NCBI RefSeq assembly: GCF_000009625.1
Contig: NC_002678.2
Location: 6,604,001 to 6,668,000, forward strand
Reading direction: 5' to 3'
Length of the DNA: 64,000 nucleotides
Source: Mesorhizobium japonicum MAFF 303099
GTDB taxonomy: Bacteria > Pseudomonadota > Alphaproteobacteria > Rhizobiales > Rhizobiaceae
Position 1 is the first letter of the stretch. Every line of letters starts with the position of its first letter. Both the position numbers and the translations under genes were made by a program. The notes beneath the pieces were generated by a model. The model ran no database searches. It worked only from the letters and a program-made list of their open reading frames with translations, and was not told the DNA's origin. Positions 46,965 to 56,775 of this stretch are shown here, in pieces.

Positions 46965-47882
46965 TCAGCTGCGGCCACCTATCTTGGTCGTATTGATAGG
47001 TGCGAAGACCTGCAGGGTCGCTGGCCGAATCTGAAAATTCAGGGGCGTGTTTATACTGACGGCTTCGCCGTCCAGAGAGATCAGCATGGCGCGTCGATGC
47101 GATGTGATTTGGAGCGAATTGGTGCGATAGATTTCCAGATCTCGTGTGGCGTCGACCATGCCGAACGCGATCTTGAACGGAAGCAATGCCAGTCCAAACC
47201 AGGACTGCTGCTTGACGACATAAACGCACAGCTCTTTCGACGGCAGGCTGCGGCGGCGGCCAAGATCGGCGATGTCGTAGAAATTGTTGCCAACAAACAC
47301 GCAGGGCGTCCGCAGTCTTTCGCGGGCGCCCTGGGCAGAGACGTGGACAGCCTGCCAGGAGGCGAATCTCAATGTTCTCATGAGGGCCGGTCCGATGGCG
47401 GCAAGCTTGCCGAACCCGCGGCGCCGCTGCTCGGCTGAACGCTTTGCAACAAAGAAGGGATAGATGCCGATCGATGAGTTGTTGAGAAAGACTCGGCCGT
47501 TGACCTCGGCGACATCGACCGCGACAGGCTTGCCCGTCGCGATTGTATCGATCGCCGCCGTCAGGTCGAGCGGCACACCCAAATCCTTGGCAAAGTGGTT
47601 TAACGTGCCGAGCGGAAGAACACCGAGCACCACATCCGTCCCCGCCAGCGCGGAGGCGGCGCTGCCGAGAGTGCCGTCGCCGCCGCCCACCACTAAGATC
47701 GATCCATGACCGGAACTCGACTTGTTTTCGGAAACAAGGCGCTGAGCGAGCTCTCCCACTTCTCGCCCTTCTACCAATCGCACATCGGCCTCGACGCCAC
47801 ATTCGGCGAACCCATCCCGCACGGCTCTCTCGATGTCGCCCTCGCGCGCCGCAGCGCCGGCCCTTTTGTTGATGAGCGCCAT
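46965..47882 (-). CDS. Diacylglycerol kinase-type lipid kinase
   Basis: A 305-residue DAGK-catalytic protein: N-K-R-A-G-A near the start, V-V-G-G-G-D-G-T-L-G-S (nucleotide-binding loop), L-P-L-G-T-L-N-H-F-A-K-D-L-G (catalytic loop), then FLNNSSIGIYPFFVAKRSAE and I-S-L-D-G-E-A near the end. It phosphorylates diacylglycerol or a related lipid. ATG 47882 comes 5 bases after the PAP2 stop with TGAAGG in front; an in-frame ATG at 47927 would overlap PAP2. Kinase and PAP2 phosphatase together form opposite lipid phosphorylation steps, as in known fused proteins. Confidence 0.85.
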   Translation of the reverse strand: MALINKRAGAAAREGDIERAVRDGFAECGVEADVRLVEGREVGELAQRLVSENKSSSGHGSILVVGGGDGTLGSAASALAGTDVVLGVLPLGTLNHFAKDLGVPLDLTAAIDTIATGKPVAVDVAEVNGRVFLNNSSIGIYPFFVAKRSAEQRRRGFGKLAAIGPALMRTLRFASWQAVHVSAQGARERLRTPCVFVGNNFYDIADLGRRRSLPSKELCVYVVKQQSWFGLALLPFKIAFGMVDATRDLEIYRTNSLQITSHRRAMLISLDGEAVSINTPLNFQIRPATLQVFAPINTTKIGGRS

Positions 47883-47887
47883 AACCT

Positions 47888-48790
47888 TCAAGTCTTCGGC
47901 CCCCGCTTTGGCCTTTCCTGAAACCATAAAGAGACTATCCAGCACAGGATCGCCCAGCCTGAGCCAACGCACCATCCTGCCAACACGTCCGTGGGATAGT
48001 GGACTGCGAGATAGACCCGGCTTATGCCGACGGCCACCGTCAGAAACACGGCGAGCGCCATGAAATACACTTTGAGGCGCAGATCCTGACTTGCATGTGA
48101 AAGGAGAGCGCCCACGGTCAGGAACGTGATCGCCGAAAGCATTGCATGTCCACTCGGGAAGCTTGCCGTGAATACTCGCGTGACATGAGGGATCTCCGGC
48201 CTGGGCCGGTCGAAGCTCAGCTTGAGGATCGTGCCAAGCAGTTCGCCGCCGGCCACCGCCACCGCCATCCAAATGGCCAGAGCCCGCTTGTGGACCAGAA
48301 GCAGGTAAACAACCGCTGCCAGTAGCACGAAGCAAAGAAACACCATGCTGCCGACCGAGGTCACATCCCTGGCCGCTTCTTGAAGCCATGGTGGACCGAT
48401 CGGGTAGGCCGGATCGGCTGCGCGAAGGGCCGACATAATGGTCAGGTCAAATTTGGTTGTGTCGCCTTCCAGGACTTCCTCGGCGAGCACCCCGAAGCCG
48501 AGAACGAGGCATGCTACAAGCATCACCGCGATAAGGCTGTATTTACCTTGTGCGGAAGCACCACTGATCCGGGATGGCAAGGGAGGGCAGTCGCCGCCGA
48601 GACGCCTGCGCTCAATATCTGGGAATGGTTCTTTCAAGCGCCGGACCTCACGGTAGAGGCATAACGGGCTCGCGAGAACGAGGTTCCCCCAGCCATCACC
48701 GCCCTGAGAACGTTGGATATCTGCAACGACACAGTGCGACAGCCCCGACGACCTGACGCCGTCACTCCCTCTCTTCCGAATGGCCCTCAT
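47888..48790 (-). CDS. PAP2-family membrane phosphatase
   Basis: A 300-residue protein, N-terminal 90 residues hydrophilic, then six helices with PAP2 motifs: K-L-S-F-D-R-P-R-P-E, S-F-P-S-G-H-A-M-L and SRVYLAVHYPTDVLAGWCVG. Likely substrates are phosphatidate, diacylglycerol pyrophosphate or undecaprenyl pyrophosphate. The start is uncertain: ATG 48790 has AGAGAGG just before it, ATG 48817 has no ribosome binding site and overlaps the -35 of the KaiC-like promoter. First gene of the operon with lipid kinase and phosphoesterase. Confidence 0.85.
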   Translation of the reverse strand: MRAIRKRGSDGVRSSGLSHCVVADIQRSQGGDGWGNLVLASPLCLYREVRRLKEPFPDIERRRLGGDCPPLPSRISGASAQGKYSLIAVMLVACLVLGFGVLAEEVLEGDTTKFDLTIMSALRAADPAYPIGPPWLQEAARDVTSVGSMVFLCFVLLAAVVYLLLVHKRALAIWMAVAVAGGELLGTILKLSFDRPRPEIPHVTRVFTASFPSGHAMLSAITFLTVGALLSHASQDLRLKVYFMALAVFLTVAVGISRVYLAVHYPTDVLAGWCVGSGWAILCWIVSLWFQERPKRGPKT

Positions 48791-48809
48791 TGCCTCTCTT
48801 GCTGAAGAG

Positions 48810-48834
48810 GGAACCATTGAAAATGCTAGCCGTT
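48810..48834 (+). promoter_or_regulatory. EcfG-type promoter GGAAC-N16-CGTT before kaiC-like gene
   Basis: GGAAC at 48810-48814, 16 bases, CGTT at 48831-48834: a full match to the general stress consensus. The start codon of the KaiC-like gene is 30 bases further on. It overlaps the divergent PAP2 upstream region. Confidence 0.7.
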
Positions 48835-48863
48835 AACGTGGTCACGAAAAGCGAGCGGGCAAC

Positions 48864-50351
48864 GTGGATCAAGACGACGCTTCACCAATATCATCTGGAG
48901 TGGAAGGCCTCGACTATGTCCTGCGAGGCGGATACGCAAAATACCGTTCACATCTTGTAGAGGGCAGGCCAGGTTCAGGTAAGACCACACTTGGTCTGCA
49001 GTTTCTGATCAAGGGCGCGGCGGCTGGCGAGAAATGCCTTTATATAACGCTGTCCGAAAGCAGGCGTGAGCTGCAATCGGTCGCGGTACGGCATGGATTT
49101 TCTCTTGACGGTATCGAAATCCTCGAGCTCGTCCCGCCGGAGCTAAGCCTCGATCCGTCGCAGTTACAAACTCTGGTTCATTCATCCGATCTCGAGCTTG
49201 GTGAAACCGTCCAGGCCGCGCTCGCCGAAATCGAGCGCATGAAGCCAGATCGCGTGGTCTTCGATTCCCTGTCGGAAATTCGCCTCTTGTCGCAGGGCTC
49301 GTTACGCTATCGGCGGCAGGTTCTGGCTTTGAAAAGCTTTTTCCTGCTCAACAATGCGACGGTGCTTCTGCTTGACGATCTCACCGCTGAACATGACGAT
49401 CTAAACCTGCATTCCATCAGTCATGGCGTCATCCGGATGGAACAGCTTTCGCCGATCTATGGCGGAGAGCGGAGGCGGCTGCGCATCATCAAAATGCGCG
49501 GCGTTCAAATTCGGGGCGGCTTCCACGACTTCGTCATTCGACCGGGCGGCGTGATGGTGTTTCCGCGCTTGGTTGCCTCCGAACACGAGATGGCCGAGCA
49601 TGGAACGCCGGCAACCGGTAATGGATCTGTCGACACGCTCGTGGGTGGCGGGCTGGACCGCGGCACCAGCACTCTCCTGATGGGACCTTCTGGTGTCGGT
49701 AAATCGACCATCGCGTGCAGCTATTGCCATTCGGCTCTCAAGCGCGGCGAACATGTGCTGGTGCTTTTGTTCGATGAAACCAAGCGGATTTTCCTGGCGC
49801 GCGCGTCAGGCCTCGGCATGGACCTGGGGCCATTCGCCGACAACGGCAATTTGCTGCTGGAACAGATCGACCCGGCGGAATTGTCGCCTGGTGAATTGTC
49901 GTCGCGCATCCAGTCGGCTGTGGAGCGCTCAAGTGCAAGGATCGTCGTCATCGACAGCCTGACCGGGTATCTCAATGCCATGTCGGAGGAGCAGCATCTT
50001 GTGCTGCAGATGCACGAGATCCTGACATACCTTAATCAAAAGGGCGTTGTGACGATCCTGCTGTTGGCCAATCATGGGCTGATCGGGCAAATGTCAGCCC
50101 CCGTCGACATGACCTATCTCTGCGATTCCGTAATGCTACTGCGTTTCTTCGAAAGCGGCGGCCGTCTGAGACGAGCTATTTCCGTGGTCAAAAAACGCGT
50201 CGGGCCGCATGAGGACACCATTCGCGAATTCAAGATAAGCGCGACCGGCCTGGCCGTCGGCGAACCACTAGAGGAGTTCCGAGGGATACTGACTGGCGTG
50301 CCCACCTACGAGGGTAAGCAAGGCAACCTGCTGCAAGACAAGGCATCGTGA
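48864..50351 (+). CDS. Double-domain KaiC-like ATPase
   Basis: A 495-residue protein with two RecA-type KaiC domains. The first has Walker A G-R-P-G-S-G-K-T-T with Lys40; the second has G-P-S-G-V-G-K-S-T with Lys280. The residues that follow the second domain's Walker B match KaiC to the end (S-V-M-L-L-R-F-F-E, then R-R-A-I-S-V-V-K-K-R). At the place of the KaiC phosphosites Ser431/Thr432 it has Thr417-Tyr418. No KaiA or KaiB is seen here. Such KaiC homologues act as ATP-driven signalling or timing proteins with histidine kinases. The start GTG follows an EcfG-type promoter, and the next kinase gene overlaps its stop. Confidence 0.9.
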   Translation: MDQDDASPISSGVEGLDYVLRGGYAKYRSHLVEGRPGSGKTTLGLQFLIKGAAAGEKCLYITLSESRRELQSVAVRHGFSLDGIEILELVPPELSLDPSQLQTLVHSSDLELGETVQAALAEIERMKPDRVVFDSLSEIRLLSQGSLRYRRQVLALKSFFLLNNATVLLLDDLTAEHDDLNLHSISHGVIRMEQLSPIYGGERRRLRIIKMRGVQIRGGFHDFVIRPGGVMVFPRLVASEHEMAEHGTPATGNGSVDTLVGGGLDRGTSTLLMGPSGVGKSTIACSYCHSALKRGEHVLVLLFDETKRIFLARASGLGMDLGPFADNGNLLLEQIDPAELSPGELSSRIQSAVERSSARIVVIDSLTGYLNAMSEEQHLVLQMHEILTYLNQKGVVTILLLANHGLIGQMSAPVDMTYLCDSVMLLRFFESGGRLRRAISVVKKRVGPHEDTIREFKISATGLAVGEPLEEFRGILTGVPTYEGKQGNLLQDKAS

Positions 50352-51388
50352 TGCCTTCAGACCGCAGTGTGCTCGTGCTGGCGCCGGTCGGGCGCGACGC
50401 GAAGGTCGCGTCTGCAATCCTCGCGGAGAACGACATCAAGTCCCACATCTGCGCCACGCTCGACGAAGCAGTTCCGCTGTTGGACCAAGCTCAGTGCTTT
50501 TTGGTTACCGAAGAAGCTTTGATCAGTTCCAATCGAAATCAGTTTGCATCGTGGCTCAATCATCAACCGACGTGGTCGGACTTTCCGATCGTGTTACTGA
50601 CGATGCGGGAAACGGAGATCGACAAGCGCCTGGCCTTTCTGGATCGCTATCTGATCGTTCTCGAGAGGCCTTTCCTGGCGTCGAGTCTGGCGAATTCGGT
50701 GCGCTCGGCTCTGCGAGCCCGCGCCCGTCAACTCGAGGTCAAGTCATATATCGAACAGAAGCAAGAGGTCGCCGACCGGCAAAAGCTGCTGATCAGGGAA
50801 CTCCATCACCGCGTCAAAAACACGCTCGCAAATGTCCGGGCGATGATGGGGGCAACCGCCAAATCGAGTGGTAGCGTGGATGATTTCGTGCGCGATTTCT
50901 CCGCCAGGATCGTCTCTCTCGCCGACACGCACTCGATGCTCACCGATGACTATTGGCAGATGGCCTCCCTGCACAAGCTGCTGGAGTCGGAACTGCGCCA
51001 CTACGATACGAGCGACAGGCCACGTGTTGTGCTCGAAGGGCCAAACGTAGCACTGGTCGCCGATATCGCGATTCCGATCGGGATGGCCTTTCATGAACTT
51101 GCGTCCAACTCATCGAAATATGGCGCGTTGTCCCGCCCTCACGGCCGCCTCGAAGTCAGGTGGTCGGTGACCAATTCGGAAGGAGAGCGAATGCTCAATC
51201 TGGATTGGCTTGAAAAGGGCGGGCCGAAGGTCGAGCAACCAAGACGGCGCGGCTTCGGTACGACGTTGCTGGAGAAAGTCGTCGCCGTGCAGTGCCAAGC
51301 CAAGGTTGAGTTGAACTATCATCCTGACGGCCTGCGGTTCGCAATGGCCTTGCCGCTACGCGACACGAGGCTTGTCCCCGCCTACTGA
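50351..51388 (+). CDS. HWE/HisKA_2 histidine kinase with N-terminal receiver-like domain
   Basis: A 345-residue protein coupled to the KaiC-like gene by TGATG (ATG 50351 in the stop). The first 120 residues look like a receiver (S-V-L-V-L-A-P-V-G-R-D) without a clear phospho-acceptor Asp, so it may be a degenerate receiver. The kinase core has E-L-H-H-R-V-K-N-T-L-A-N with His153, then E-L-A-S-N-S-S-K-Y-G-A (N box), F-G-T-T-L-L and a typical HATPase end. HWE kinases in this group often feed the PhyR general stress switch. The coupling implies that KaiC-like and kinase act together. Confidence 0.85.
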   Translation: MPSDRSVLVLAPVGRDAKVASAILAENDIKSHICATLDEAVPLLDQAQCFLVTEEALISSNRNQFASWLNHQPTWSDFPIVLLTMRETEIDKRLAFLDRYLIVLERPFLASSLANSVRSALRARARQLEVKSYIEQKQEVADRQKLLIRELHHRVKNTLANVRAMMGATAKSSGSVDDFVRDFSARIVSLADTHSMLTDDYWQMASLHKLLESELRHYDTSDRPRVVLEGPNVALVADIAIPIGMAFHELASNSSKYGALSRPHGRLEVRWSVTNSEGERMLNLDWLEKGGPKVEQPRRRGFGTTLLEKVVAVQCQAKVELNYHPDGLRFAMALPLRDTRLVPAY

Positions 51389-51475
51389 CCTCAGCAAGGT
51401 GGCGCTCCGCTTCGGTGGTGGCCTATATGCTCCATCGCTGATACTGATGACCTTTCCTTACAGCGTAGGCGTAAA

Positions 51476-52552
51476 ATGATATCGGATACAGGGAAGCCCG
51501 AGGCGGTCGAGCAACTGCTCGATACGCCCGAACTCGCGACCGCGCTGGAGAGCGAACAGTTCAAGAAATTCCTCGATCAGGTGCCTATTGCGATCGCCGT
51601 TTCAGACCTGATCGAAACGGAGCGCGTCGTTTATGCCAATCCGGAATTCGAAAAACTCTCCGGCCTGAAGGCCGCCAGTCTGGCGCGAAAAAACTGGGCA
51701 GCGCTGTCCGGGACTGGGATCCGTGAGCAGAAGGACAAGGCGCTGGCCGAGAGCGTTATCAATGAAACGGATTTCGTCGGCACTTTCCGGCTGGAGCGCG
51801 GTGTCGACGGACCAGCAGTCGTTGACGCCTACTCAAATTTGATAGTGGACGACGACGGCAAGACTTGTTTCCGGCTGGTTGCCTTGGTGGACGTATCCAT
51901 TCACGGTGAAGAGGCGCCCTCGGTTGAGGAGCGTGTTCGGGAAAAGGATACATTGCTGCGGGAACTGCAGCATCGGGTAAAAAACAATCTCCAGATGATC
52001 ACCGCACTCATCCGGCTGGAGACCCGCAATGCGGCGGAGCCCGATCAGAAACGGTTCGAGAGGTTGGCCGGGCGCGTCGACGCTCTTGCGATACTCTACC
52101 AGGCGCTGTCGAATGACGAGCAGAACGATGAGGTCGATCTCGGCATCTACCTCAGCCAGATAGCATCTGCGGTAATGGCTTCGCATGCCGTCGAAGGCAT
52201 ACGCCTGGACATGAAAGTGGATACCTATCCCGTCTCGATCAACGTTGCGATGCCGACGGGGCTCGTTGTGAACGAATTGCTGACGAATGCGCTCAAACAC
52301 GGCTTCAAGGGACGAGAAGGCGGCACGATAACGCTTCACAGCGTGGTCGATGGCGACGGATGCCGCATCACTATCGCCGATGACGGAGTTGGCTTGCCGC
52401 AGGGCGAGACTTGGCCGAAGCCCGGCAAGCTTGGCGCACTGATCGCGCGCTCCTTGACCGAGAACGCCAAAGCGCACTTCGAAGTCAAATCCAGCGCCAC
52501 TGAAGGGACCAGGGTCACCATTGTTTTCAAGCGATCGGCGGCGACGAGCTGA
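51476..52552 (+). CDS. PAS-HisKA_2 sensor histidine kinase
   Basis: A 358-residue soluble kinase: PAS domain (about residues 28-140, VPIAIAVSDLIETERVVYAN), then R-E-L-Q-H-R-V-K-N-N-L-Q-M-I with His166 and a HATPase with N-E-L-L-T-N-A-L-K-H-G-F and A-D-D-G-V-G-L. This is the HisKA_2 form that signals to PhyR-like or LovR-type receivers. It lies 87 bases behind the HWE kinase on the same strand, so the three may share a transcript. No PhyR, NepR or EcfG gene is present in the window. Confidence 0.85.
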   Translation: MISDTGKPEAVEQLLDTPELATALESEQFKKFLDQVPIAIAVSDLIETERVVYANPEFEKLSGLKAASLARKNWAALSGTGIREQKDKALAESVINETDFVGTFRLERGVDGPAVVDAYSNLIVDDDGKTCFRLVALVDVSIHGEEAPSVEERVREKDTLLRELQHRVKNNLQMITALIRLETRNAAEPDQKRFERLAGRVDALAILYQALSNDEQNDEVDLGIYLSQIASAVMASHAVEGIRLDMKVDTYPVSINVAMPTGLVVNELLTNALKHGFKGREGGTITLHSVVDGDGCRITIADDGVGLPQGETWPKPGKLGALIARSLTENAKAHFEVKSSATEGTRVTIVFKRSAATS

Positions 52553-53164: not shown

Positions 53165-53980
53165 TCAAATGACATCAGGCTCGGCCTTTCTCCGTAAACG
53201 TCCATGCATGGCGACGTGGGTGATGGAGTTGTGGGGTGGGGCAGGGCGCTCCTGAAGCCGAATGCCCTTTGCCCAGAGCCGCAGCGCCTCCCAATGGATG
53301 CCGGCGGTCACCTTGAGTGTCAGCAGAGGATACGAGATGAATGCGCGCAGCAGACTGGCATCGCTCAGCGCCCGCCGCTTGCCGGCGAAGCTTGCCACCA
53401 TCAGCGGCCCTTGGTCGTCGCTGGCAGTGATGTGTATCGCGACGTTTTCGCCGGGGAGGCCGATGCGGAAGCGATAGTTCAATCCCATGGCCATGAAAGG
53501 CGAAACGTAGAAGCGCTTGTCGCAATGTTGCCTGACAGTCTCGTCGTGCCGCTCGCCGACAGGGATCAGGTAGCTGTGGCGCTGCCCAAAGGTGTTGTTG
53601 ACTTCGTAGAGGATCGCGACGAGGTCGCCCTGCCGGCTATGGCAGAAATAGATGCTGATCGGATTGAAAGCGTAGCCGAGCATGCGCGGCATCGAGAGCA
53701 GTCGGATTGGCCCCGCATCCGTCTCGATCCCTGCCGTCTTAAGCATATCTTCGACATAGGCTTTCAGCGATCCGCCCGAGCCATCACCGTGATCCGCGTC
53801 AGCGAAGCCAAACAGATTAAACCGGTTGTGTGACAACAGGCGAAGCCGCTTGCTCATCGCATCGATCTCGTCGAGGTCGAGCAGAAGGAAGAAAATGCGG
53901 TAGGAAAGGCGGTGCCGCCGCGGCTTCAGCCGCTGGTGCATTACTTTGCCAGCGTAGAGGGCTGATTTCAGCTCCGGCAT
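53165..53980 (-). CDS. DUF1365 protein (photo-oxidative stress cluster)
   Basis: A 271-residue protein with DUF1365 marks: S-A-L-Y-A-G-K-V-M-H-Q-R, LLSMPRMLGYAFNPISIYFC, V-N-N-T-F-G-Q-R-H and H-C-D-K-R-F-Y-V-S-P-F. The family is associated with the FAD oxidoreductase and cyclopropane-fatty-acid-synthase-type genes in the RpoE-ChrR regulon of alphaproteobacteria (known for Rhodobacter sphaeroides), and may make or modify an unusual membrane lipid. The ATG 53980 overlaps the FAD gene stop (TGATG); the GTG 53983 is an alternative. Confidence 0.9.
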   Translation of the reverse strand: MPELKSALYAGKVMHQRLKPRRHRLSYRIFFLLLDLDEIDAMSKRLRLLSHNRFNLFGFADADHGDGSGGSLKAYVEDMLKTAGIETDAGPIRLLSMPRMLGYAFNPISIYFCHSRQGDLVAILYEVNNTFGQRHSYLIPVGERHDETVRQHCDKRFYVSPFMAMGLNYRFRIGLPGENVAIHITASDDQGPLMVASFAGKRRALSDASLLRAFISYPLLTLKVTAGIHWEALRLWAKGIRLQERPAPPHNSITHVAMHGRLRRKAEPDVI

Positions 53981-55326
53981 CACGCCGCCTCGAGGTTGCG
54001 CCCCGCCACGGCGTCGATGATGTGAATGCGCGCCGACTCATTCGCGACGCTCCACGGCCGGCGTACACCGCCAAGCGCCTCAGCCGCCGCAAGCCCGGCC
54101 TGCAGGCCGTCCTCGTGGAAGCCGGCACCGAAATAGGCGCCGCAGAACCAGGTGTTTCGATTGCCCTGGAGCGACCACAGCCTTTGCTGCGCGCGCATCG
54201 CTGCGGCGTCGAAAGCCGGATGTTCATAGGTGTCGCGATGCAGAACGGTATTGGCCGCCGGTTCCACGACAGGATTGAGGGTGACGAAGAGCTGCCGGTC
54301 ATCAGGCAACGATTGAAGCCTGTTCATCCAGTACGAAACAGACAGTTTTCGGGTTTCACCCTGGCCCTGTGTCAAATAGTTCCAACTCGACCAGGCGCGC
54401 TTACGCCGCGGCATCAGGCGCGCATCTGCATGCAGCACCGCCTCATTGCGGCTGTAACCAAAACTGCGAAGCAGCCGCGTCTCGTCGTGGCTCGGATCGT
54501 CAAGAATGCGCAGCGCCTGGTCGGCATGGGTGGCGATAACGACGTGGTCGAAGCGGTGCTCCACGCCTTCGCAGTCGGTAAGCCAAGCCGCGCCCCGGCG
54601 CCTGGAGATTAAGCGTACGCCGCGCCCGGCATATGTACGGCCGGCGACGCTCCTCGCCAGTTGCTCGACATATTTGCGGCTGCCGCCATCGACTGTGCGC
54701 CAGGTTGGCCGGCCTGCCAGCTTTAGCAGGCCATGGTTCTGGCAGAACCGGATGAAGGCGGTCGCTGGATAGTTGCCGACATCAAGCGCCGGAGTCGACC
54801 ATATGGCTGCCGCCATAGGATAGAGATGATCCTCGCGGAATGCGGCACCATAGCCCCTGGCATCGAGATATTCGGCCAAGCTGATCTCGCCGATACGCGC
54901 GATGTCGTGGGGGGCCTCTCGATAGAAGCGCAGCAATTCCTTCAGCATTTGCCAAAAACGCAGCCTGCCGACATTGGACGGTTGTGCGAGCAGCCCGCCC
55001 AATCCGGTTCCCGAATATTCAAATCGTCCGCCGTCGAGCGAGACGGCAAATGACATGTCCGACGCCTTGGTGCGCACGCCGAGATACGAAAACAGCGCCG
55101 TCAGGTTGGGATAGGTTACTTCGTTATAGACGATGAAGCCGGTGTCGACCTGTGTGCCGCCCGCATCGACGGTATTGCTGTGGCCACCGAGCCGCCGGTC
55201 CGCCTCGAATAACGAAACCTTGTGGCGCGTTGAAAGCAGCCATGCTGCGGACAGGCCGGAGATGCCGCTGCCGACGATGGCGATGTCCATCGGCTTGTCC
55301 GCTTCGAAATAGCCGCCGATCGTCAT
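53980..55326 (-). CDS. FAD-dependent amine-oxidase-type oxidoreductase (lipid/ROS cluster)
   Basis: A 448-residue flavoprotein: D-I-A-I-V-G-S-G-I-S-G-L-S-A-A as the FAD dinucleotide fold, then F-E-A-D-R-R-L-G-G-H-S-N-T, D-T-G-F-I-V-Y-N, and a C-terminal N-T-W-F-C-G-A-Y-F-G-A-G-F-H-E-D-G (flavin end). It belongs to the COG2907 set found with DUF1365 and cyclopropane-fatty-acid genes. GGAGGG precedes the ATG, and a TGATCC-N18-TAGA promoter lies 55 bases upstream on the same strand. Reaction not known; a fatty-acid or carotenoid-type desaturation is plausible. Confidence 0.9.
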   Translation of the reverse strand: MTIGGYFEADKPMDIAIVGSGISGLSAAWLLSTRHKVSLFEADRRLGGHSNTVDAGGTQVDTGFIVYNEVTYPNLTALFSYLGVRTKASDMSFAVSLDGGRFEYSGTGLGGLLAQPSNVGRLRFWQMLKELLRFYREAPHDIARIGEISLAEYLDARGYGAAFREDHLYPMAAAIWSTPALDVGNYPATAFIRFCQNHGLLKLAGRPTWRTVDGGSRKYVEQLARSVAGRTYAGRGVRLISRRRGAAWLTDCEGVEHRFDHVVIATHADQALRILDDPSHDETRLLRSFGYSRNEAVLHADARLMPRRKRAWSSWNYLTQGQGETRKLSVSYWMNRLQSLPDDRQLFVTLNPVVEPAANTVLHRDTYEHPAFDAAAMRAQQRLWSLQGNRNTWFCGAYFGAGFHEDGLQAGLAAAEALGGVRRPWSVANESARIHIIDAVAGRNLEAA

Positions 55327-55380
55327 TCGTGCCCTCCGATTTGCTATGGAAGGGACTAACGTCCTCCCCTAGGTTTAATT

Positions 55381-55408
55381 TCTACGCAGCGGTGTGGGCT
55401 GTGGATCA
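55381..55408 (-). promoter_or_regulatory. RpoE (ECF11) promoter TGATCC-N18-TAGA
   Basis: On the minus strand TGATCC (55408-55403), 18 bases, TAGA (55384-55381), before the FAD and DUF1365 genes. It matches the form of the RpoE-ChrR promoter of Rhodobacter sphaeroides. Confidence 0.75.
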
Positions 55409-55436
55409 CCGTGTGCAGCAATCGCTGCGCGGCCAG

Positions 55437-55464
55437 TGATCCGAAAGGGATTGCCGCGCGTAAC
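55437..55464 (+). promoter_or_regulatory. RpoE (ECF11) promoter TGATCC-N18-TAAC
   Basis: TGATCC at 55437-55442, 18 bases, TAAC at 55461-55464, before the rpoE-like gene itself, implying autoregulation. It is divergent from the promoter at 55381-55408. Transcription would begin near 55471, so an ATG at 55472 would be leaderless and an inner start (GTG 55544) is worth weighing. Confidence 0.75.
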
Positions 55465-55471
55465 AGGGCTT

Positions 55472-56125
55472 ATGAATGCAGGACATCATTTCATTGCCGA
55501 CAAAGCGCTTCTTGCTTTCGATCTCGCGGAGAGCGGATTGGCGGTGACCATACGCAACGACGAGGGGAGCCTGTCGGCGCCGGAAGCGACCCGTTTGATG
55601 GCGGCAGTCGCGGCGAACCGCGATCGAGTGGCATTCGCGGCACTGTTCGGCTTCTACGCGCCGCGGCTGAAGGCTTTCCTGAAGCGTTCGGGGATGACGC
55701 CGTCCGCCGCGGAGGACGTCGTGCAAGAAACCATGCTGCTTGTCTGGAAAAAGGCGTCGTATTTCGATCCAGGGCGTGCAGGGGTGTCGACCTGGATCTT
55801 TACCATCGCCCGCAACGCGCGCATCGACCGGCTGCGCCGCGAAAGCCGACCGGCAGCCATCGCCGAAGCATTTGACCCATCGGACCAGCAGGATGCGCCG
55901 GTTTCGGGCGAGCAAGTCATTATCGCCGCGGAGCGGGAGGAGCGGCTGCGGGAGGCGCTCGATCTTCTGCCGCGAGATCAGGCCGATATCCTGAAAATGT
56001 CCTTCTATGGCGAGGTAACGCAATCCGAGATCGCCAACGCGGTCGGCATCCCGCTCGGCACCGTTAAATCACGCGTGCGGCTGGCCCTTGGCCGGCTGCG
56101 CCAAATCCTGGACGACCTCAAATGA
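55472..56125 (+). CDS. rpoE: ECF sigma factor, RpoE/ECF11 type (photo-oxidative stress)
   Basis: A 217-residue sigma factor with region 2 (FAALFGFYAPRLKAFLKRSG, then V-Q-E-T-M-L-L-V-W-K-K, then FTIARNARIDRLRRE) and region 4 (LLPRDQADILKMSFYGEVTQ, then I-P-L-G-T-V-K-S-R-V-R-L-A-L-G-R-L). These fit the ECF11 group that answers to singlet oxygen and is held by ChrR. The next gene is its ChrR with an ATGA overlap. The 42 residues before region 2 are extra compared with the family; a GTG at 55544 would shorten them by 24. The upstream promoter suits autoregulation. Confidence 0.9.
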   Translation: MNAGHHFIADKALLAFDLAESGLAVTIRNDEGSLSAPEATRLMAAVAANRDRVAFAALFGFYAPRLKAFLKRSGMTPSAAEDVVQETMLLVWKKASYFDPGRAGVSTWIFTIARNARIDRLRRESRPAAIAEAFDPSDQQDAPVSGEQVIIAAEREERLREALDLLPRDQADILKMSFYGEVTQSEIANAVGIPLGTVKSRVRLALGRLRQILDDLK

Positions 56126-56775
56126 TCAAGCATCATCCGAGTGATGAGACGCTCTTCCGTTATGCCAACGGCTCTCTCGAATCTGGGCCGCGCATCGTCG
56201 TGGCCGTCCATGTCGGCGCCTGCACGGCTTGCGCCGAGCGCATTGCCGGATTCGAAGCGCTTGGTGGCTCCCTTCTGCACGATATCGAGCCGGAGGACAT
56301 GGAACCTGGAGCCCTCGATCATGTGATGGCGATGATCGACACCGGTGAGGCCAGTCGCGCCAAGGCCGCGCCCGCCAACAGGCTTCCCCGCGCCGATGTG
56401 GGCATCCGCTTGCCTGAGGTGCTTGACGACTGTGGCATCGGGCCATGGCGCTGGATCGGGCCGGGCGTGCGCTGGAGCCGCGTGACGCTGCCTGATGACG
56501 ACAGCGCCAACGTCATGCTGCTGAAGGTCGTGGCCGGCCGCAAGCTGCCGGAGCACACGCATGCGGGCTATGAATACACCCATATACTGAAAGGGGCCTT
56601 CTCGGACGCGCGCGGCCGCTATGGCCCGGGGGATCTCGACGAGGCCGATGACGACGTTCAGCATCAGCCGATCGTGGACAAGGAAGGCGAATGTATCTGC
56701 ATTGCCGCGCTCGAAGGGCAGATGAAGCTGAGCGGCTTCTTCGGCAGGCTGATCCAGCCTCTGTTCGGCGGCTGA
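56122..56775 (+). CDS. chrR: ChrR-type zinc-binding anti-sigma factor with cupin domain
   Basis: A 217-residue protein overlapping the sigma gene by ATGA. The first part has the zinc anti-sigma set His5, His30, Cys34, Cys37 (H-V-G-A-C-T-A-C), one residue earlier than the numbering in Rhodobacter ChrR. The second part is a cupin with E-H-T-H-A-G-Y-E (His-x-His-xxx-Glu metal site) and a further His after it. In Rhodobacter the sigma factor is released when singlet oxygen triggers loss of ChrR, and the cupin domain is required for this. All key ligands are present. Confidence 0.9.
   Translation: MIKHHPSDETLFRYANGSLESGPRIVVAVHVGACTACAERIAGFEALGGSLLHDIEPEDMEPGALDHVMAMIDTGEASRAKAAPANRLPRADVGIRLPEVLDDCGIGPWRWIGPGVRWSRVTLPDDDSANVMLLKVVAGRKLPEHTHAGYEYTHILKGAFSDARGRYGPGDLDEADDDVQHQPIVDKEGECICIAALEGQMKLSGFFGRLIQPLFGG

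Follow-up and report, generated by a model that had tools for sequence, protein, structure and literature searches.

Operons that pair KaiC with a histidine kinase of its own were described by De Luca et al. in 2011: in this "second kaiC context," or KaiC-Nt_HK operon, a kaiC gene with Ser-Tyr, Thr-Tyr, or Ser-Phe (SY, TY, or SF) is directly followed by a specific kinase whose N-terminal domain is weakly receiver-like, and kaiB is missing (PMC3164672). In Ramlibacter, Rta_04330 and Rta_04340 are cotranscribed, and an hourglass was proposed (PMC3164672). The subject here is a kaiC-like gene and the overlapping gene of an HWE histidine kinase in 64,000 nucleotides of the Mesorhizobium japonicum MAFF 303099 genome (contig NC_002678.2, positions 6,604,001 to 6,668,000), a stretch called the window below. 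By description, the family fits the De Luca operon type, with Thr417-Tyr418, a kinase with the N-terminal domain directly downstream, and 0 matches to KaiB. It differs in that the figure legend of that paper has HisKA-type kinases, whereas the pair in the window has an HWE output and a promoter of the EcfG (general stress) type; the main text contains neither "HWE" nor "general stress."

Other described systems share parts of this layout. The KaiC1 and KaiC2 proteins of M. extorquens (Iguchi et al. 2018, as given in the review PMC8069551) are alphaproteobacterial KaiC homologues, and the kaiC2-kaiR2 cluster lists no kaiB. KaiC2, likened here by description, is phosphorylated on a conserved Ser (the single mutation S426A abolishes the phospho-band), and a stress-resistance phenotype is known for the M. 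extorquens system; in its account of these proteins, the review reports no EcfG control of kaiC (PMC8069551). The cyanobacterial KaiABC clock with its kinases SasA and CikA shares the KaiC fold, the ATP sites, and the histidine-kinase output, and it has pseudo-receivers in CikA and KaiA (PMC12632262); in the window, however, there is no KaiA or KaiB, Thr-Tyr takes the place of S431-T432, and the pseudo-receiver kinase is in the same operon. The Pak kinases and LOV-HK of the alphaproteobacterial stress response belong to the same HWE/HisKA_2 family and carry the HRxxN box, and Brucella LOV-HK is the closest fold match of the kinase. LOV-HK has a LOV/PAS N-terminus, in contrast to the KaiC-linked pseudo-receiver here.

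The original prediction took the locus for the best candidate for an undescribed system, which is too strong since SY/TY/SF KaiC with a downstream kinase was published in 2011 (PMC3164672). What stands is narrower: neither literature searches of main texts nor the consulted parts of PMC3164672 yielded the four features reported below, namely the promoter of the EcfG type, the HWE kinase as output, the exclusive pairing in both directions, and the repeated exchange of outputs. No paper tying KaiC to EcfG was found in these searches, and "KaiC" is absent from the main texts of the papers on EcfG and the general stress response that were searched.

The promoter of kaiC and the operon

The KaiC-kinase pair appears to be a switch for energy or timing that is linked to stress, and not a full day-night clock. 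Its features are listed here, with counts out of 69 referring to a survey of 69 distinct pairs having both KaiC and the adapter domain.

48810..48834, + strand: GGAAC-N16-CGTT, a promoter motif of the EcfG (general stress) type whose first base is 54 nt upstream of the kaiC GTG at 48864
48864..50351, + strand: kaiC-like gene (495 aa, starting with GTG) for a double RecA/KaiC ATPase, PF06745 in two stretches
48963..48986, + strand: CI Walker A GRPGSGKT, residues 34-41 (K40 and T41 in 69/69)
49683..49706, + strand: CII Walker A GPSGVGKS, residues 274-281 (K280 in 69/69)
50112..50117, + strand: Thr417-Tyr418, by alignment the equivalent of KaiC S431-T432
50348..51388, + strand: pseudo-receiver-HWE histidine kinase gene overlapping the kaiC stop; the ATG at 50351 is a possible true start
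50363..50722, + strand: N-terminal pseudo-receiver adapter domain, about residues 6-125, a receiver fold without the phospho-Asp
50807..50821, + strand: phospho-acceptor box HRVKN (H154), by motif

The predicted GGAAC-N16-CGTT element does stand before kaiC, and the same consensus has been published for R. etli EcfG1 (PMC3892343). With a spacer of 16 or 17 nt, the pattern has 5 matches in the window compared to 1.0 expected from shuffling (0 of 100 shuffles had 5 or more). The genome-wide count shows no excess (148 sites vs 240 for a reversed control), so one match alone proves little. The case for a promoter rests on a cross-species footprint among loci whose KaiC is at least about 80% identical, all named Mesorhizobium except two rhizobial metagenome-assembled genomes (KaiC is 97% identical in M. 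huakuii and M. jarvisii). The motif lies within 300 nt upstream of kaiC in 19/19 named loci and in 21/21 loci of a genus sample, two sets that share some strains, and its distance to the start is 53-61 nt. Under a Markov model, 0.04 and 0.06 loci with the motif would be expected in the two sets, and the reversed motif occurs in none of their loci. Among 28 distinct upstream sequences (39 loci, L057 left out), GGAAC and CGTT are kept in all 28, one with a 17-nt spacer, whereas the 60 columns before the motif carry at most 0.39 bits and are near random. This footprint (40/40 loci) rules out a chance promoter despite the lack of a genome-wide excess. The motif is also present at a second copy on contig C3 and at a plasmid copy in Mesorhizobium 113-3-3. 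The kaiC-HWE promoter is thus predicted to be of the EcfG type and would depend on EcfG.

Outside this clade, the motif is found in 4/4 Mesorhizobium loci of the SY type (at -133 to -140) and in 6/20 class-sample loci with Ser/Thr-Tyr/Phe sites (at -91 to -152). It was found in 0/3 SF-type Mesorhizobium loci and in 0/10 kaiC loci with ST, SS, or SA sites; the fragment L093 is excluded from these counts. Neither of two further class places, L108 and L110, has it.

The junction of the two genes reads GTGATG, with the kaiC stop TGA at 50349-50351 and a kinase start at GTG 50348 or ATG 50351. Since an ATG overlaps the kaiC stop, as TGATG or TAATG, in 13 of the 18 clade loci listed, the sequence suggests that the two genes are translationally coupled. 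A relative of the kinase lies directly 3' of kaiC in 20/21 loci (in pieces in one of these, L028). The exception is the Acidobacteria locus L029, where the KaiC search was below threshold; five pieces of broken kaiC genes were left untyped in the survey of adapter pairing.

The KaiC protein and its phosphosites

The double KaiC domain expected for this protein is borne out: two RecA-like domains with Walker A motifs match PF06745, and about residues 9-482 can be aligned with Protein Data Bank (PDB) chains named KaiC. With 211 vs 408 bits and 127.8 vs 546 bits, the protein falls short of the NCBIfam cut-offs for clock KaiC. As the original prediction stated, KaiA and KaiB are absent, with 0 matches to either model in the whole genome. 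Because of this, a free-running clock is not expected, and a KaiABC oscillator is further at odds with the replacement of the Ser-Thr sites by Thr-Tyr.

Thr417-Tyr418 does align with S431-T432 of cyanobacterial KaiC, with no other residues at the sites. The view that this pair is unusual does not hold up, since TY is found in 120 of 121 sequences (one SY; the query and the best 120 homologues of 7999) and is the commonest state in the 69 distinct pairs (TY 44, SY 21, SF 3, TF 1). Position 417 is Ser or Thr in 69/69, and position 418 is always aromatic (Tyr 65, Phe 4); phosphorylation is therefore probably to be expected on Thr417. Also invariant in 69/69 are both Walker A lysines, D134, D364, and the equivalents of E319, K457, and R459. 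In CI, the equivalent of the catalytic E77 is Ser in 65 and Ala in 4, and that of E78 is Glu in 67 and Gln in 2, both assigned from the alignment with PDB KaiC chains and the columns of the 69-pair survey. In CII, the equivalent of E318 is Asp in 66 and Glu in 3, so the acidic pair is conserved as Asp-Glu. The equivalent of T426 is Ala in the window and Thr or Ser in 43/69.

The pseudo-receiver kinase and its pairing with KaiC

The overlapping gene codes for an HWE kinase, as predicted (PF07536, 86.4 bits vs a cut-off of 22.8), with the boxes HRVKN, HELASN, and WLE, which correspond to the HRxxN, HELxxN, and W-x-E boxes of the family. The degenerate receiver noted at its N-terminus is confirmed: the domain has the receiver fold, and the alignment has Thr/Ala-Glu-Glu where the phospho-acceptor Asp would be, which is why the adapter is called a pseudo-receiver. 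The structure model of the full-length kinase has a pLDDT of 76.8 and a pTM of 0.47. Its top 50 Foldseek rows are kinase domains and LvrB with no lone receiver; the receiver rows came from a further comparison.

The pairing of KaiC with the adapter is near-exclusive in both directions. On the adapter side, one place (L147, genome G453) has no adjoining KaiC; on the KaiC side, three places with Ser/Thr-Tyr/Phe sites have no adapter, namely L124 and two archaeal ones. At an archaeal locus, on a Haladaptatus plasmid (L144), two SY-site KaiC genes each have a response regulator standing alone behind them; the first regulator is 120 aa long, and the second runs off the end of the stretch. In a profile comparison with a single-sequence template, the regulator there matches the adapter with 15% probability (E 0.0017).

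Behind the adapter, the output varies. Labeled by motif patterns, the 69 rows have HWE outputs in 25, HisKA with HDFNN in 41, HisKA with SHE in 2, and one unassigned. To account for the spread of the HWE label over the adapter tree, in which the long branch of L123 is doubtful, 7 changes are required, and starred branches force at least 4 of these. The pseudo-receiver adapter thus appears to have stayed constant while the output kinase was exchanged repeatedly. Together with the gene overlap and the position of the adapter directly downstream, the near-exclusive pairing upholds the tight coupling of KaiC and the HWE kinase that had been proposed.

A possible link to the general stress cascade

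The original prediction suggested that the pair might feed the PhyR cascade, and the parts for such a link are present: genes for PhyR (387.7 bits vs 240), NepR (61.2 bits vs 25.7 by Pfam, with no NCBIfam match), and a sigma factor resembling EcfG are grouped at 2.98 Mb of contig C1, the contig of the 7.6-Mb genome that also carries the window. Since HWE/HisKA_2 Paks, the general stress response kinases of Sphingomonas, phosphorylate PhyR and SdrG in vitro (PMC5898713), transfer from the window's kinase to PhyR is plausible. A gene next to PhyR in the same genome (L140, 8503-9537) encodes a 344-aa HWE-like kinase that scores below the family cut-offs.

Single-domain regulators lie 3' of the kinase in the S. 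meliloti operon L143 and in the Mesorhizobium PAS-HWE operon L073. The L143 regulator is 35% identical to the PhyR receiver of the window's genome (E 2e-14); its scores against PhyR-type receiver families do not reach the cut-offs of those families. The L073 regulator has an FLTGYD stretch that, by eye, is like the FAT GUY class named in PMC5898713.

Neighboring genes and other copies

Two features flank the operon.

51476..52552, + strand: PAS-HisKA_2 kinase, by domain match, a frequent neighbor outside the core
48663..48687, - strand: another motif of the EcfG type, oriented toward the divergent PAP2-DAGK genes and kept in 5/5 loci with that neighborhood

The HisKA_2 kinase follows the HWE kinase as had been noted. 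It is found in 13/19 clade loci (in two frames in one), a contig end cuts one more, and it is rejected as a core member, being absent in 5/19 and, at another locus, lying about 3.7 kb beyond the HWE kinase. The PAP2-DAGK genes (46965-48817, - strand) diverge from kaiC with their own GGAAC-N16-CGTT, whose footprint is weak: the spacer is conserved too, and two of the 5 loci are from the same genome. PAP2, DAGK, and PLD were rejected as part of the system, since the full set is beside kaiC only in L010, L026, and the two copies of this genome; L009 has no PLD. The whole block (PLD, phosphoesterase, DAGK, PAP2, kaiC, HWE kinase, and HisKA_2 kinase) is present a second time, at 136000-155000 of the 208-kb contig C3 (L060). 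The DNA of this copy is about 90-94% identical over about 9 kb, its KaiC 98%, and it has its own EcfG motif.

In Mesorhizobium WSM4306 (L028/L069), kaiC is broken by frame changes and the promoter motif is still intact, and another genome (L070, G044) holds only a remnant of kaiC. At 53165-56775 of the window, there is an ECF sigma factor with a ChrR-cupin protein, adjoined by an FAD oxidoreductase and a DUF1365 gene, a cluster that resembles a singlet-oxygen SigE-ChrR cluster.

A stress-linked switch and its alternatives

The interpretation favored here, which has about an even chance of being right, is a two-protein switch induced by general stress, in which the state of KaiC gates the HWE kinase through the adapter, with output to a PhyR-class receiver and feedback. 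EcfG would transcribe kaiC and the overlapping kinase gene. KaiC, presumably a hexamer, would bind and hydrolyze ATP and probably autophosphorylate on Thr417, in keeping with its Walker A motifs and conserved CII acidic pair. The N-terminal pseudo-receiver would be a dedicated docking adapter for KaiC that reads its nucleotide or phosphorylation state, and the docked state would turn the HWE kinase on or off. The kinase would then phosphorylate PhyR itself or a single-domain regulator as its PhyR-class receiver, and the stress output would feed back on the stress response. Such a switch would work like an energy-state or hourglass gate. In a bolder and doubtful extension, KaiC and the adapter would form a mobile chassis across proteobacteria with a fixed contact and an exchangeable output. 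In Mesorhizobium, this chassis would have become a feedback timer within the PhyR-EcfG cascade, with the ATP state determining the duration of the stress response.

Several results weigh against the proposed switch. HisKA-type outputs, which would not be expected to target PhyR, make up 43/69 of the adapter proteins, and no receiver gene adjoins the window's operon. Stress control is not universal, as the motif is missing in 14/20 class loci, in the nearest HWE relatives outside Mesorhizobium (Microvirga L027, Rhizobium TCK L137, and M. bullatum L138), in A. fabrum L139, and in the loci L141-L146. This version of kaiC is accessory, being intact in only 20/99 Mesorhizobium-type genomes (broken in one, a remnant in one), by searches that scored a limited number of candidates per genome. 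The correlation of KaiC and adapter distances (r=0.84) stands without an unrelated-gene control and owes part of its size to shared ancestry.

Some of the same results favor a downstream effector, in which the EcfG-made, KaiC-controlled kinase would target a regulator outside the PhyR cascade, such as one for attachment or for UV or temperature resistance, with no feedback. The mostly HisKA outputs of related adapter kinases and the single-domain regulators of L073 and L143 agree with it, as do the M. extorquens KaiC proteins, which influence UV resistance and have LabA downstream of them (PMC8069551). Against it, HWE/HisKA_2 kinases are the PhyR and SdrG kinases of Sphingomonas (PMC5898713), and the L143 regulator resembles the PhyR receiver. 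On balance, such an effector is possible but rather unlikely. The chances are slimmer still that KaiC is a pure ATP/ADP sensor without autophosphorylation and that the kinase reads the nucleotide state only; the altered catalytic acids (E77 to Ser in CI, E318 to Asp in CII) and the lack of KaiA speak for this, but the strict Ser/Thr at 417 suggests a phosphosite.

An hourglass or clock, with KaiC phosphorylation drifting slowly over the day to time the output, has precedent in the De Luca et al. hypothesis for the same gene arrangement in Ramlibacter (PMC3164672), and timekeeping by KaiC alone has been raised for rhizobia (PMC11346424). It is improbable here given the genome without KaiA or KaiB matches, the Tyr or Phe at the second site, the Ala at the T426 equivalent, the Ser in place of the CI catalytic Glu77, and the stress-type promoter. 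Autophosphorylation of Tyr418, making KaiC a tyrosine kinase as the original prediction allowed, can be nearly dismissed: Tyr is there in 65/69, but Phe replaces it in 4/69, 417 is always Ser or Thr, and S426A removes the phospho-band of M. extorquens KaiC2 (PMC8069551), a protein that may belong to this subfamily.

Significance

For most bacteria, it is an open question which role KaiC plays when KaiA and KaiB are absent. The KaiC of the window has one near-exclusive partner, a constant docking-type domain in that partner, and a conserved stress-type promoter, and with these, the question becomes testable in Mesorhizobium, a genus that can be cultured and genetically altered.

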